The notes under the pieces were generated by a model, which did no database searches, was not told where the DNA came from, and was given only the letters and a program-made list of their open reading frames with translations. A DNA stretch of 64,000 nt from the NCBI GenBank assembly GCA_945872425.1, contig CAMBZE010000001.1:17895-81894 (forward strand), read 5' to 3'. Made by a program: the position numbers and the translations under genes. This stretch comes from Methylotenera oryzisoli (GTDB lineage: Bacteria; Pseudomonadota; Gammaproteobacteria; Burkholderiales; Methylophilaceae). Shown piece after piece: positions 5,543-44,969 of this stretch. Every line of letters begins with the position of its first letter. Positions within the stretch are counted from its first letter, which is position 1.

Positions 5543-5561
5543 ATAATTCTGTCATGCCAGT

Positions 5562-5688
5562 CCCGTAGGGTGGGCAATGTTTTTTTGCCCACCGATTGAT
5601 TCCAATTGTGGTGGGCAGAAACGCACTGCCCACCCTACTTGGCTGTGAACTCGGTGTTCTCTGTGGCTAACTGCTTTTTATAGGTTTA
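5562..5688. repeat. Palindromic intergenic element (CCCGTAGGGTGGGC family), copy 1
   Basis: It begins CCCGTAGGGTGGGCAATG and folds back through TTGCCCACC, GTGGTGGGCAG and CTGCCCACCCTAC. The same sequence occurs in reverse orientation at 44306-44413 after rsuA, nearly base for base. Copy 1 also carries an insert (GTGAACTCGGTGTTCTCTGTGGCT) that belongs to the CTCTGTGGCT repeat family. The distal end AACTGCTTTTTATAGGTTTAT runs into the miaA stop codon. It occupies the whole dapC-miaA gap and may act as a convergent terminator. Confidence 0.8.
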
Positions 5689-6628
5689 TAAATCGCGCTA
5701 TTTTATCCCGCACTATCTCAGGCATTGCGTCATTTAAACAATCCACCTCTGCCAGAGCATCCATGCTGCGCAACCATGTCAGCTGACGTTTTGCCAACTG
5801 GCGTGTGGCAAAAATGCCTCTGTCACGCAATTCGGCTACATCATACTCTCCCGCCAAATGCGCTAACGCCTGCCGATAGCCTACACAGCGCATAGCGGTG
5901 CTTTCTGCTGTCAGTGCGGGATATTTTGTCAGCAGCGCTTTCACTTCATCTAAAAAACCGTCTGTCAGCATCGCATCAAAACGTAGCGCAATACGTTGGT
6001 GCAACACCTTGCGGTCACTGGGCAGCAGTGCAATTTTAAGTAATCGGTAAGGCAAGGCTGCACCTGACGACTCTTGATGCAATGCCGTCATGGTTTTACC
6101 CGTAATTCGATACACTTCCAGCGCCCTTTCGATGCGCTGTGCATCCGCAGGCTGTAAGCGGGCTGCTGACTCAGGGTCAATTTCTGCGAGTTTTTGGTGC
6201 ATGGCCGGCCAACCGATCTGCGCAGCCTCTTGCTCAATTTCCTCGCGCACTTCAGGGTTTGCTTCAGGAAGATGACTCAAGCCGCCTTCCAGCGCCTTGA
6301 AGTACAACATCGTCCCGCCCACCAGCACAGGCGTTTTGCCGCGTGCGGTAATATCCGCCATCAAGCGCAAGGCATCATTTCTGAAATTTGCGGCAGAGTA
6401 AGCCTCTGTTGGCGAGATAATGTCGATCAAATGATGCGGTGCTTTAGCCAGCGTGGCAGCGTCCGGCTTGGCTGTGCCGATGTCCATATCACGAAACACC
6501 AAGGCAGAATCCACACTGATAAGCTCTACAGGCAGTTTTGAATAAATATCGACCGCCAGACCGGTTTTACCGCTGGCGGTGGGGCCCATCAAGAAAATAG
6601 CCGGGGGTAAGTTTTGATTGTTCATCAC
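5678..6628 (-). CDS. miaA: tRNA dimethylallyltransferase
   Basis: Transfers the dimethylallyl group of DMAPP to N6 of A37 in tRNAs reading UNN codons, the first step toward ms2i6A. The 316-residue protein shows the P-loop FLMGPTASGKTGLAVD near residue 12, the DSALVFRDMDIGTAKP segment, and VLVGGTMLYFKALEGGL. The ATG at 6628 overlaps the mutL stop by 4 bp, so it is the last gene of the tsaE-amiC-mutL-miaA operon, as in many proteobacteria. Its stop codon lies within the end of the palindromic repeat element, so that element may have reshaped its last residues (INL). Confidence 0.96.
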   Translation of the reverse strand: MMNNQNLPPAIFLMGPTASGKTGLAVDIYSKLPVELISVDSALVFRDMDIGTAKPDAATLAKAPHHLIDIISPTEAYSAANFRNDALRLMADITARGKTPVLVGGTMLYFKALEGGLSHLPEANPEVREEIEQEAAQIGWPAMHQKLAEIDPESAARLQPADAQRIERALEVYRITGKTMTALHQESSGAALPYRLLKIALLPSDRKVLHQRIALRFDAMLTDGFLDEVKALLTKYPALTAESTAMRCVGYRQALAHLAGEYDVAELRDRGIFATRQLAKRQLTWLRSMDALAEVDCLNDAMPEIVRDKIARFINL

Positions 6629-8463
6629 TGACCACGCATAAACATCTTGTCTAAATCACTCATGCTCACTTGAAACCAGGTCGGGCGACCATGATTGCAT
6701 TGACCTGAGCGTTCAGTTGCTTCCATATCACGTAATAATGCATTCATTTCTGGAATAGTAAGGCTGCGGTTGGCACGCACCGCCGCATGGCAGGCCATGG
6801 TGCCTAGCAGTTCGTTCCTGCGCTCGGTCAGCGCACGACTTGCACCGTACTCACGCAAATCACGCAGCACATCGCGCGCTAACGTCACTGCATCAGCCTC
6901 TTGCAGCATGGCAGGCACTGCGCGCACCGCCAGCGTGGTGGGAGAAAGAATAGCAATGTCAAAACCCAGCTGTTGCAAGCTTGCGTCACCACTTGCCAGT
7001 GCCTCCTGCACAGTCGCGACTTCCAATTTATCGGCATTAAAACTCACCGGGAGCAGCAAGGGTTGCATAGACACACTTTTGCTATCCAGCGCATTTTTAA
7101 GCTTTTCATACATAATGCGCTCATGCGCGGCATGCATATCGACCACGACCAAGCCCTGCACATTTTGCGCCAATACATAGACACCGTGAATTTGCGCCAC
7201 TGCGAAGCCCAAAGGAAAGTTATTAGGCGAAAAGTTATTAGGCGAAAAGTTATTAGGCGGAAAATCATCAGGTTGAGACTGCGTAACGCTTTCGTTATTT
7301 TCATATTGTCGCTCACTGCCGACATTGGCGCTTGTCCCGAACATGGTCTGATAAAAACTGGATGGCGCATTCGCACTCAAATTGATTTGAGACTGATAGC
7401 TTGGATAAGGCGTATTGGATGGCGCATATCCGAAAGGATTGCGTACCGCCTGACTCGCAGTCACCGCATTGGACGCTCCCGTTGGCGTAGCCAATGCTTT
7501 GTGTAGCGAATGAAAAATAAAGCGATGGATGGCCTGCGCATCCCTGAACCTGACTTCAGTTTTTGCCGGATGCACATTCACATCCACCAGCGCAGGATCC
7601 AGCTCTAAAAACAATACGAAAGCAGGATGACGGTCGTGATGCAACACGTCCTGATACGCCTGACGGATGGCATGTGCGATGAGCTTGTCACGCACAAAAC
7701 GGCCATTCACATACACGTATTGCGTATCGCGCGTATTTCTATTGAACGTTGGTCTGGCTGCCATGCCCCACAAACGCAGCCCGGCACTGGATTCATCTAC
7801 GCTAAATGATTCAGCAGCAAACTCATTACCCAGCACGTCAGTGAACCTGCGCTCAGGTTGGCCGACGGCAAAACGGCTCAACGCGCGGCCATTGTGTTGC
7901 AACATAAAACTTACATCAGGCCGTGAAAGCGCGACGCGGTTAAAGGCTTCTTCACAATGCCCAAACTCGGTCGCCTCGGTCTTTAAGAATTTACGGCGTG
8001 CCGGCGTATTGAAATATAAATCGGTCACTTCGATCATCGTCCCCGCATCTAATGCGGCAGGTTCAATCATCGAAATTTCGCTGCCTTCTGCGGCAATGCG
8101 CCAGGCATGCTTGCTAGCGACTTGGCGACTCAATAACTGAGTGCGTGAAATTGAAGCAATGCTCGCCAGCGCCTCGCCACGAAAACCCAAACTGGCAACA
8201 GATTCCAGGTCTTCTAGGCTTGAAATTTTGCTGGTGGCGTGCCGCGTCAGCGCCAGTGCCAAATCTTCTTTTGCCACACCCGCACCGTTATCTACGACAC
8301 GCAATTGTTTAATGCCACCCTGCAGTAACGATACTTGAATATCCGTGCTGCCGGCATCCAGGCTATTTTCCAATAATTCCTTAAGCGCCGATGCCGGACG
8401 CTCAACCACCTCGCCTGCCGCGATTTGGCTGATCAGTTGATCTGCTAAAAGATGAATGCGCAT
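6625..8463 (-). CDS. mutL: DNA mismatch repair protein MutL
   Basis: ATP-dependent matchmaker of methyl-directed or nick-directed mismatch repair. The N-terminal GHKL ATPase shows IAAGEVVERPASALKELLEN, the DNGAGV motif and GFRGEALASIASIS. A middle transducer domain (LVDVNVHPAKTEVRF at about residues 298-312) and a C-terminal dimerisation domain ending in CNHGRPTWF follow. No DQHA(x)2E(x)4E endonuclease motif is obvious, though the DMHAAHERIMYE segment partly resembles it and should be checked. The linker carries an in-frame 15-bp tandem repeat encoding SPNNF units. It is 3 bp downstream of the beta-CASP gene and overlaps miaA by 4 bp. Confidence 0.96.
   Translation of the reverse strand: MRIHLLADQLISQIAAGEVVERPASALKELLENSLDAGSTDIQVSLLQGGIKQLRVVDNGAGVAKEDLALALTRHATSKISSLEDLESVASLGFRGEALASIASISRTQLLSRQVASKHAWRIAAEGSEISMIEPAALDAGTMIEVTDLYFNTPARRKFLKTEATEFGHCEEAFNRVALSRPDVSFMLQHNGRALSRFAVGQPERRFTDVLGNEFAAESFSVDESSAGLRLWGMAARPTFNRNTRDTQYVYVNGRFVRDKLIAHAIRQAYQDVLHHDRHPAFVLFLELDPALVDVNVHPAKTEVRFRDAQAIHRFIFHSLHKALATPTGASNAVTASQAVRNPFGYAPSNTPYPSYQSQINLSANAPSSFYQTMFGTSANVGSERQYENNESVTQSQPDDFPPNNFSPNNFSPNNFPLGFAVAQIHGVYVLAQNVQGLVVVDMHAAHERIMYEKLKNALDSKSVSMQPLLLPVSFNADKLEVATVQEALASGDASLQQLGFDIAILSPTTLAVRAVPAMLQEADAVTLARDVLRDLREYGASRALTERRNELLGTMACHAAVRANRSLTIPEMNALLRDMEATERSGQCNHGRPTWFQVSMSDLDKMFMRGQ
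7216..7275. repeat. 15-bp tandem repeat inside the mutL linker
   Basis: AAAGTTATTAGGCGA occurs twice, then AAAGTTATTAGGCGG, then a decayed unit AAAATCATCAGGTTG. On the coding strand this gives repeated NNFSP units in the flexible linker between the ATPase and dimerisation domains. A change of unit number would keep the reading frame. Confidence 0.9.
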
Positions 8464-12781: not shown

Positions 12782-12913
12782 TGTAGGAGCGGCGCCCCGC
12801 CGCGATTGTCACCATTGCTTCGCGGCGAGGCGCCGCTCCTACAAAAACAGACACATGACGGTCACCATTGCTTCGCGGCGGGGCGCCGCTCCTACAAAAA
12901 CCGACGCATGATG
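12782..12913. repeat. REP-like palindromic array (GTAGGAGCGGCGCC)
   Basis: One forward arm, GTAGGAGCGGCGCCCCGCCGCGA, faces two tandem 53-bp units, each containing TTCGCGGCG(A/G)GGCGCCGCTCCTAC followed by AAAAAC(A/C)GAC(A/G)CATGA. The forward arm and the first unit form a long GC-rich hairpin. This is the architecture of REP elements mobilised by RAYT transposases; no RAYT gene is in the window. It lies between two convergent genes and probably blocks read-through. Confidence 0.88.
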
Positions 12914-38560: not shown

Positions 38561-38597
38561 GCCACAGAGACTCTGTGGCTAACTACTTTTTATAGGT
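38561..38597. repeat. Collapsed GCCACAGAG/CTCTGTGGC repeat, tatD-ribD gap
   Basis: GCCACAGAG-A-CTCTGTGGC is a near-perfect palindrome made of the two ends of the repeat family with nothing between, followed by TAACTACTTTTTATAGGTT, which also ends the repeat before miaA. It lies 6 bases after the end of ribD. Confidence 0.75.
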
Positions 38598-38602
38598 TAA
38601 CG

Positions 38603-43593: not shown

Positions 43594-44313
43594 ATGGCTA
43601 AAAAACTCTCTATTGAACGTATCCTGCACAACCAAGGCTTTGGCTCACGCAAGTTTTGCCGCATACTGATTATCAACGAAGAAGTCACCGTGAATGGTGC
43701 ATGGTGCGATGACCCGGACACCCCGTTTGATACCGAAAATTTAAGTTATACCATTAAGGGTGAGGCGTGGGATTATCATGAAAAATCGTACCTGATGCTA
43801 CACAAACCCGCTAATTACGAATGCTCGCACAAAACCCAGCACCACCCTACCATTTATAGCCTGCTGCCTTTTCCGTTAGTTGAAAGAGGAGTTCAGTGCA
43901 TCGGTCGCCTAGATGAAGACACCACCGGGCTGATTTTGATTTCTGACGATGGGCAATTTATCCATCGCATGAGCTCACCCAAACACAAAGTACCCAAGGT
44001 GTATGAAGTGACCTGCAAACACCCCGTGGATGCACAACAAATCGCGCATATTTTGCAAGGTGTGCAGTTGGTGGATGAGCCCGCCCCTATCGCGGCATTA
44101 TCCTGCGAAAAGATCAGCGCTCATGTCATTCACATGACGCTCGCTGAAGGTAAGTATCACCAAGTAAAACGCATGGTCGCTGCAATTAGCAACCGGGTAG
44201 AAGGCTTGAAGCGCATTCAAATTGGCGAATTAAAGCTGCCTGCAGACTTAGCGGTTGGCCAATGGCGCTGGTTAAGCAAAGATGACTTGGCAAAGCTCGG
44301 TATAGCTCGATAA
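43594..44313 (+). CDS. rsuA: RsuA-family rRNA pseudouridine synthase
   Basis: Pseudouridine synthase of the RsuA/RluB/E/F branch, probably 16S U516. The 239-residue protein has an N-terminal S4 domain (SIERILHNQGFGSRKFCRILI), then MLHKPANYECSH, the catalytic segment CIGRLDEDTTGLILISDDGQF with its Asp, and GKYHQVKRMVAAISNRVEGLKRIQIG. The 3' end is disturbed: a 39-bp stretch of the coding end (GCTGGTTAAG...GGTATAG) is repeated 147 bp downstream across an inserted repeat. The present last residues are GIAR; the outer copy would have ended GIE. Confidence 0.92.
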   Translation: MAKKLSIERILHNQGFGSRKFCRILIINEEVTVNGAWCDDPDTPFDTENLSYTIKGEAWDYHEKSYLMLHKPANYECSHKTQHHPTIYSLLPFPLVERGVQCIGRLDEDTTGLILISDDGQFIHRMSSPKHKVPKVYEVTCKHPVDAQQIAHILQGVQLVDEPAPIAALSCEKISAHVIHMTLAEGKYHQVKRMVAAISNRVEGLKRIQIGELKLPADLAVGQWRWLSKDDLAKLGIAR

Positions 44314-44413
44314 ACCTATAAAAAGCAGTTAGCCAAGTAGGGTGGGCAGTGCGGTTCTGCCCACCACAATTGGAATCAATCGGTGGGAAAAAAAACATTG
44401 CCCACCCTACGGG
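44306..44413. repeat. Palindromic intergenic element (CCCGTAGGGTGGGC family), copy 2, with flanking duplication
   Basis: The 108-bp insert is the reverse complement of the element before miaA, lacking the CTCTGTGGCT insert. It is bordered by two 39-bp direct repeats of the rsuA 3' end (44267-44305 and 44414-44452, one mismatch). Confidence 0.85.
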
Positions 44414-44528
44414 GCTGGTTAAGTAAAGATGACTTGGCAAAGCTCGGTATAGAATAAAAGAAGCGGCTATAGTCAGCGTATAATATGCGCTATTTTACAA
44501 TTCTGGTTTTAGTTAAGTGATATCACCC

Positions 44529-44969
44529 ATGCACATTACCACCCGCCTTGAGTTTGATGCCGGACACCGCATCCCCAATCATAAAAGTCAATGTAAAAAT
44601 TTACATGGGCATCGCTATGCAATGGAAATCACCCTGTCCGGCGATATCATCACGCAGGAGAATGCATCTGAAAACGGCATGGTGATGGACTTTTCAGATG
44701 TGAAAGCTATCGCTAAAAAAGCCGTGATTGATGTGTGGGATCATGCCTTTTTGGTCTATCAACATGACTCAGAAGTGTTGAATTTTCTGAATACGCTCCC
44801 CAACCATAAAACCGTCATATTCCCGACTGTCCCCACCGCAGAGAACATGGCGTCAGAAGCTTTTAAAATACTCAAAGCCAGATATCAGGATACGTTTGGC
44901 AACCATTTAAAATTGGAAAAAGTGCGTTTGTATGAAACGCCCAATAGCTGGGCGGATGCGCTAGGCTAA
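44529..44969 (+). CDS. queD: 6-carboxy-5,6,7,8-tetrahydropterin synthase
   Basis: Converts 7,8-dihydroneopterin triphosphate to carboxytetrahydropterin in the preQ0/queuosine pathway. The protein (146 residues from ATG 44529) shows RLEFDAGHRIPNH, SQCKNLHGHRYAMEI with the catalytic Cys and two zinc His, VMDFSDVK, WDHAFLV and the C-terminal VRLYETPNSWA with the substrate Glu. The track begins four codons upstream at a GTG; neither start has a strong Shine-Dalgarno sequence. A TATAAT at 44479-44484 may be its -10 box. queG at 11.7 kb completes the same modification. Confidence 0.93.
   Translation: MHITTRLEFDAGHRIPNHKSQCKNLHGHRYAMEITLSGDIITQENASENGMVMDFSDVKAIAKKAVIDVWDHAFLVYQHDSEVLNFLNTLPNHKTVIFPTVPTAENMASEAFKILKARYQDTFGNHLKLEKVRLYETPNSWADALG

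Follow-up and report, generated by a model that had tools for sequence, protein, structure and literature searches.

The rsuA-type 16S rRNA pseudouridine synthase gene of Methylotenera oryzisoli ends in a 39-bp direct repeat that brackets a 108-bp insert, and this arrangement is probably a templated insertion from the 3' end of miaA, made by template switching, with the last 39 bp of rsuA re-replicated on the return. All positions given here refer to the window, that is, the whole stretch of 64,000 nucleotides that was analyzed, which lies on contig C1 of a genome of 1.49 Mb (81 contigs, 98.3% complete); copy counts are those of this incomplete assembly. The rsuA gene was identified as an open reading frame with a profile match (43594-44313, plus strand). 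Its product scores above the cut-off of the pseudouridine synthase model TIGR00093, its best-scoring model is RsuA NF008097, below the cut-off of that model, and the gene is nearest to the rsuA of Methylotenera-type Methylophilaceae. The downstream neighbour is queD (44517-44969, plus strand), and rsuA and queD are adjacent (43594-44969) in this genome only, among the genomes examined.

Direct comparison of the inner repeat copy in rsuA (44267-44305) with the outer copy (44414-44452), both on the plus strand, confirmed the 39-bp duplication described in the initial annotation, with its one C/T difference (38 of 39 positions identical, or 97.4%; spacing 147) and with exactly 108 bp between the copies. 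The two reading-frame ends proposed there were recovered as well: the inner copy reads ...SKDDLAKLGIAR-stop, that is, rsuA now ends in GIAR and takes its stop codon from the insert, and the outer copy reads ...GIE-stop, continuing to GAATAA, the probable original end of the gene. Among exact direct repeats at most 400 bp apart in the window, the 28-bp exact core ranks in the top two by length, together with a 15-bp tandem array in mutL; in three first-order Markov shuffles of the window the maximum was 13 bp. The mutL array (7216-7260) is in frame and gives NNFSP repeats in the protein. No second rsuA-like gene end, as a source of the outer repeat, was found elsewhere in the genome.

The insert is composite. 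Its description as a 108-bp palindromic element holds for 74 bp only (44337-44410, no strand assigned; DNA fold z of -4.6) and fails for the remainder, which consists of a fragment of a second repeat and junction bases. In the central 74 bp, two GTAG-headed palindromic units stand in inverted order, GTAGGGTGGGCA...TGCCCACCCTAC with inner palindromes, forming a REP doublet of the REPIN type with two palindromic arms and outward GTAG heads. The insert is not a REP unit from end to end, since it also holds part of another repeat, here called repeat A, and bases outside the doublet: the 5' junction bases CTCGATAAA (44306-44314, plus strand), similar to ATAGCGCG(ATTT)ATAAA at miaA; the repeat A fragment CCTATAAAAAGCAGTTAGCC plus AA (44315-44336, plus strand), which lacks 24 bp that the miaA copy has; and, on the other side of the doublet, a 3' junction GGG (44411-44413, plus strand) in common with the miaA locus. 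Repeat A, which begins with CCTATAAAAAGCAGTTAGCC, is dispersed, is unrelated to the REP doublet, and stands alone elsewhere in the genome and in relatives. It has a conserved start, CCTATAAAAAGCAGTT, followed by differing bodies (AGCCACAGAG..., GTCCACGAAA..., AACCACCGATG...), its sites including 38576-38598 on the minus strand of the window, 20697-20743 on contig C7 of this genome (G000), and loci L044, L047, and L052; possibly it is a MITE family of the genus. No Rfam match was found anywhere in the window, and neither the rsuA stretch nor the miaA composite was matched in plasmid and phage collections. A role of the REP doublet as a terminator or promoter was considered and dropped: we saw a single weak terminator-like site and no promoter, and claim no function for the insert.

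The probable donor is the 3' end of miaA (5557-5701, minus strand), 38.6 kb from the rsuA insert and in the opposite orientation, where an undeleted composite of repeat A, the REP doublet (5565-5638), and GGGACTGG is located. Positions 44302-44418 align over their full length to positions 5701-5557, with four mismatches and gaps of 4 and 24 bp, and the order of the components, repeat A, REP doublet, and then GGGnCTGG, is the same at both loci. A search of 187 Methylophilaceae genomes detected the composite at no locus beyond rsuA and miaA. As in a templated insertion, the insert is traceable to an identifiable locus, and the aligned tract overruns the REP doublet on both sides, which argues that the locus was copied and not the element. 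At the 5' edge, the rsuA copy has ATAGCTCG where miaA has gene sequence, a resemblance expected in about 0.3% of random placements; for the CTCG at this edge an alternative source, AGCTCGG, is situated 13 bp upstream, and the ATAAA ahead of repeat A also occurs at some other repeat A copies and is weak evidence for miaA.

The natural direction of copying would be from miaA to rsuA, judging from the state of the two copies. The 24 bp absent from the rsuA copy are kept at miaA, where they match other family members. The miaA genes of relatives end in AAAATAGCGC..TTTAT, and the bases preceding repeat A at miaA are thus gene sequence. Reverse copying, from rsuA to miaA, was rejected on the ground that the miaA copy is undeleted and follows native miaA sequence. 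Since repeat A contains the miaA stop codon (CTA TAA; 5678-5690, minus strand), it has replaced the native end of miaA, and the miaA ends of relatives are different. The two composite copies also bear on an assembly error at the repeated element, which we regard as highly improbable. The genome is in 81 contigs and the composite is present twice; however, a chimera would fuse different loci and not duplicate the end of one gene, and substitutions and gaps distinguish the two composite copies, just as one base distinguishes the 39-bp copies.

The junctions are compatible with a strand that changed templates. At the 5' edge, where the alignment begins, ATAG is common to the rsuA target and the miaA donor, the 24-bp gap sits between AGCCA direct repeats, and at the 3' edge, where the alignment ends, CTGG is common to both loci with a difference in the adjoining base (donor GGGACTGG, target GGCGCTGG, product GGGGCTGG). 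From these features we infer a template-switch process, its direction, and its completion in a single event. In the starting state, rsuA would lack the insert and carry the GGTATAGAATAA end once. While this end was being replicated or repaired, the growing strand would leave its template after GGTATAG and pair through ATAG with the miaA 3' end, 38.6 kb off and inverted. There it would copy the composite repeat, omitting 4 bp close to the start and the 24 bp that separate the two AGCCA repeats, and would then rejoin rsuA at (G)CTGG, a point 39 bp before that of its departure, so that the last 39 bp of rsuA would be made twice. Simple slippage would be insufficient for a donor in inverted orientation at a distance of 38.6 kb. 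Divergence is similar in the two parts of the structure (one difference in 39 bp between the repeat copies, a few in about 115 bp of the insert), as expected under one event.

The same order of repeat, insert, and repeat, with the same donor match, could also be produced by a staggered double-strand break whose overhangs of about 39 nt were filled in at both ends, a copied or broken-off piece of miaA being joined between them. We consider this route unlikely; it requires two widely spaced nicks and end joining, and the small gaps in the insert become extra events. In its sequence outcome, fill-in with capture would resemble template switching, and the two would be inseparable here.

Forty-four related rsuA loci were compared, some of which may represent one genome present in two collections. 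In none of them was the gene end repeated, none had a REP or queD alongside, and the longest downstream repeat of a gene end was 10 bp. The state that would speak against the duplication having accompanied the insertion, both repeats present and no element between them, was accordingly not found among these loci, the best of which has an rsuA of only about 78% DNA identity. A search for an empty site revealed no rsuA-queD neighbourhood in relatives, and the loci recovered by a contig scan did not exceed 81% protein identity. These comparisons bear on a two-step origin, in which the rsuA end would first have undergone a 39-bp tandem duplication and the composite would have entered between the copies afterwards. 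Relatives at about 78% identity are too distant to show the true empty site, and local duplications of about 200 bp with part of a REP doublet exist in two congeneric genomes; nevertheless, such a history is quite improbable, given that the insert falls exactly at the boundary of the copies, that every base between them is assigned to the donor alignment or to a junction, and that a duplicated rsuA end is seen in 0 of the 44 related loci.

Two copies of the REP doublet were found in this genome, in place of the many copies per genome that mark a REPIN, and most other carriers have one to six; the carriers number 8 of 52 congeneric genomes for this pattern and, for a looser one, 11 of 187 genomes of the family. 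In one relative (G044), copies of this REP stand on either side of a gene for a REP-associated tyrosine transposase (RAYT). RAYT genes are also present in the genome studied here (G000), on contig C35, where the gene is cut by a contig end, and on contig C19, where another GTAG repeat, GTAGGAGCGGC, flanks it. Spaced repeats of 53 bp in the window (12808-12901) represent a second REP family (GTAGGAGCGGCGCC...), and the GTAGGAGCGGCGCC motif flanks the RAYT gene on contig C19, around 22.6-23.3 kb (L211).

Transposition, either of the doublet through a RAYT transposase or of the composite as a MITE, with a 39-bp target duplication, could draw on these genes, both those present in this genome and the doublet-flanked one in G044. 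It is nonetheless very unlikely. The initial annotation raised the question of long flanking duplications at other copies of the element, and no flanking direct repeat longer than 10 bp lies within 200 bp of the 14 other REP doublets or of the miaA copy, compared with 28 bp exact, or 39 bp with one mismatch, at rsuA. Target-site duplication would give several copies flanking repeats of one length, but the rsuA copy alone has such a repeat. Moreover, the insert exceeds the GTAG-to-CTAC unit, and the IS200/IS605 family is described as making no larger target duplications (PMC2817692). Template switching from miaA agrees with this absence of flanking repeats at other copies, and also with the donor, the tract running across the element boundaries, and the short homology; the origin by repair or strand switching suggested in the initial annotation is the best-supported one, although the element itself had been misdrawn.

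The doublet resembles REPINs and GTAG-tagged REP dimers (PMC3116915, PMC3733652) in its outward GTAG heads, its two inverted palindromic units in 74 bp, its extragenic position at a gene 3' end, and the occurrence of RAYT genes in the genus. It differs from them in that no more than two copies were found here and it was in a relative that the cognate RAYT was seen, and the rsuA copy additionally has extra donor sequence and the 39-bp flanking duplication. REPs are known to be reiterated together with flanking DNA (PMC3733652), and REP units with duplicated flanking DNA are likewise present in the relatives G044 and G050, as local direct duplications of about 200 bp (96-99% identity) comprising the flank and the left part of the REP doublet (L148 1-422, G044 contig C43; L057 1326-1745, G050 contig C77). 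In those clusters the REP is reiterated with its flank, whereas at rsuA the flank is duplicated around one doublet. The closest mechanistic parallel is found in MMBIR (PMC2621351), where E. coli amplification junctions are reported to have microhomologies of 2-15 bp, a size in line with the homologies at rsuA. The rsuA structure shares with it short homology (5' edge and internal gap), a templated insert from a distant locus, and a duplication beside a small deletion, but the gene-amplification events that define MMBIR are much larger, and at rsuA the process is deduced from the final sequence and the 3' edge is imperfect.

A broader interpretation, that the hairpins of REP doublets themselves promote template switching to ectopic sites and REP-bearing pieces of chromosome thereby spread by copying, with long flanking duplications and independently of RAYT, appears to us very doubtful. 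The rsuA insertion is a clear single example of an already known kind of accident, and as one event only it leaves the general picture unchanged. It exemplifies, in a bacterium, a short templated insertion with a flanking duplication, and documents at sequence resolution a REP doublet that has apparently spread without transposition, along with neighbouring bases of its probable donor. Shared REP copies are, with due caution, not necessarily products of RAYT.
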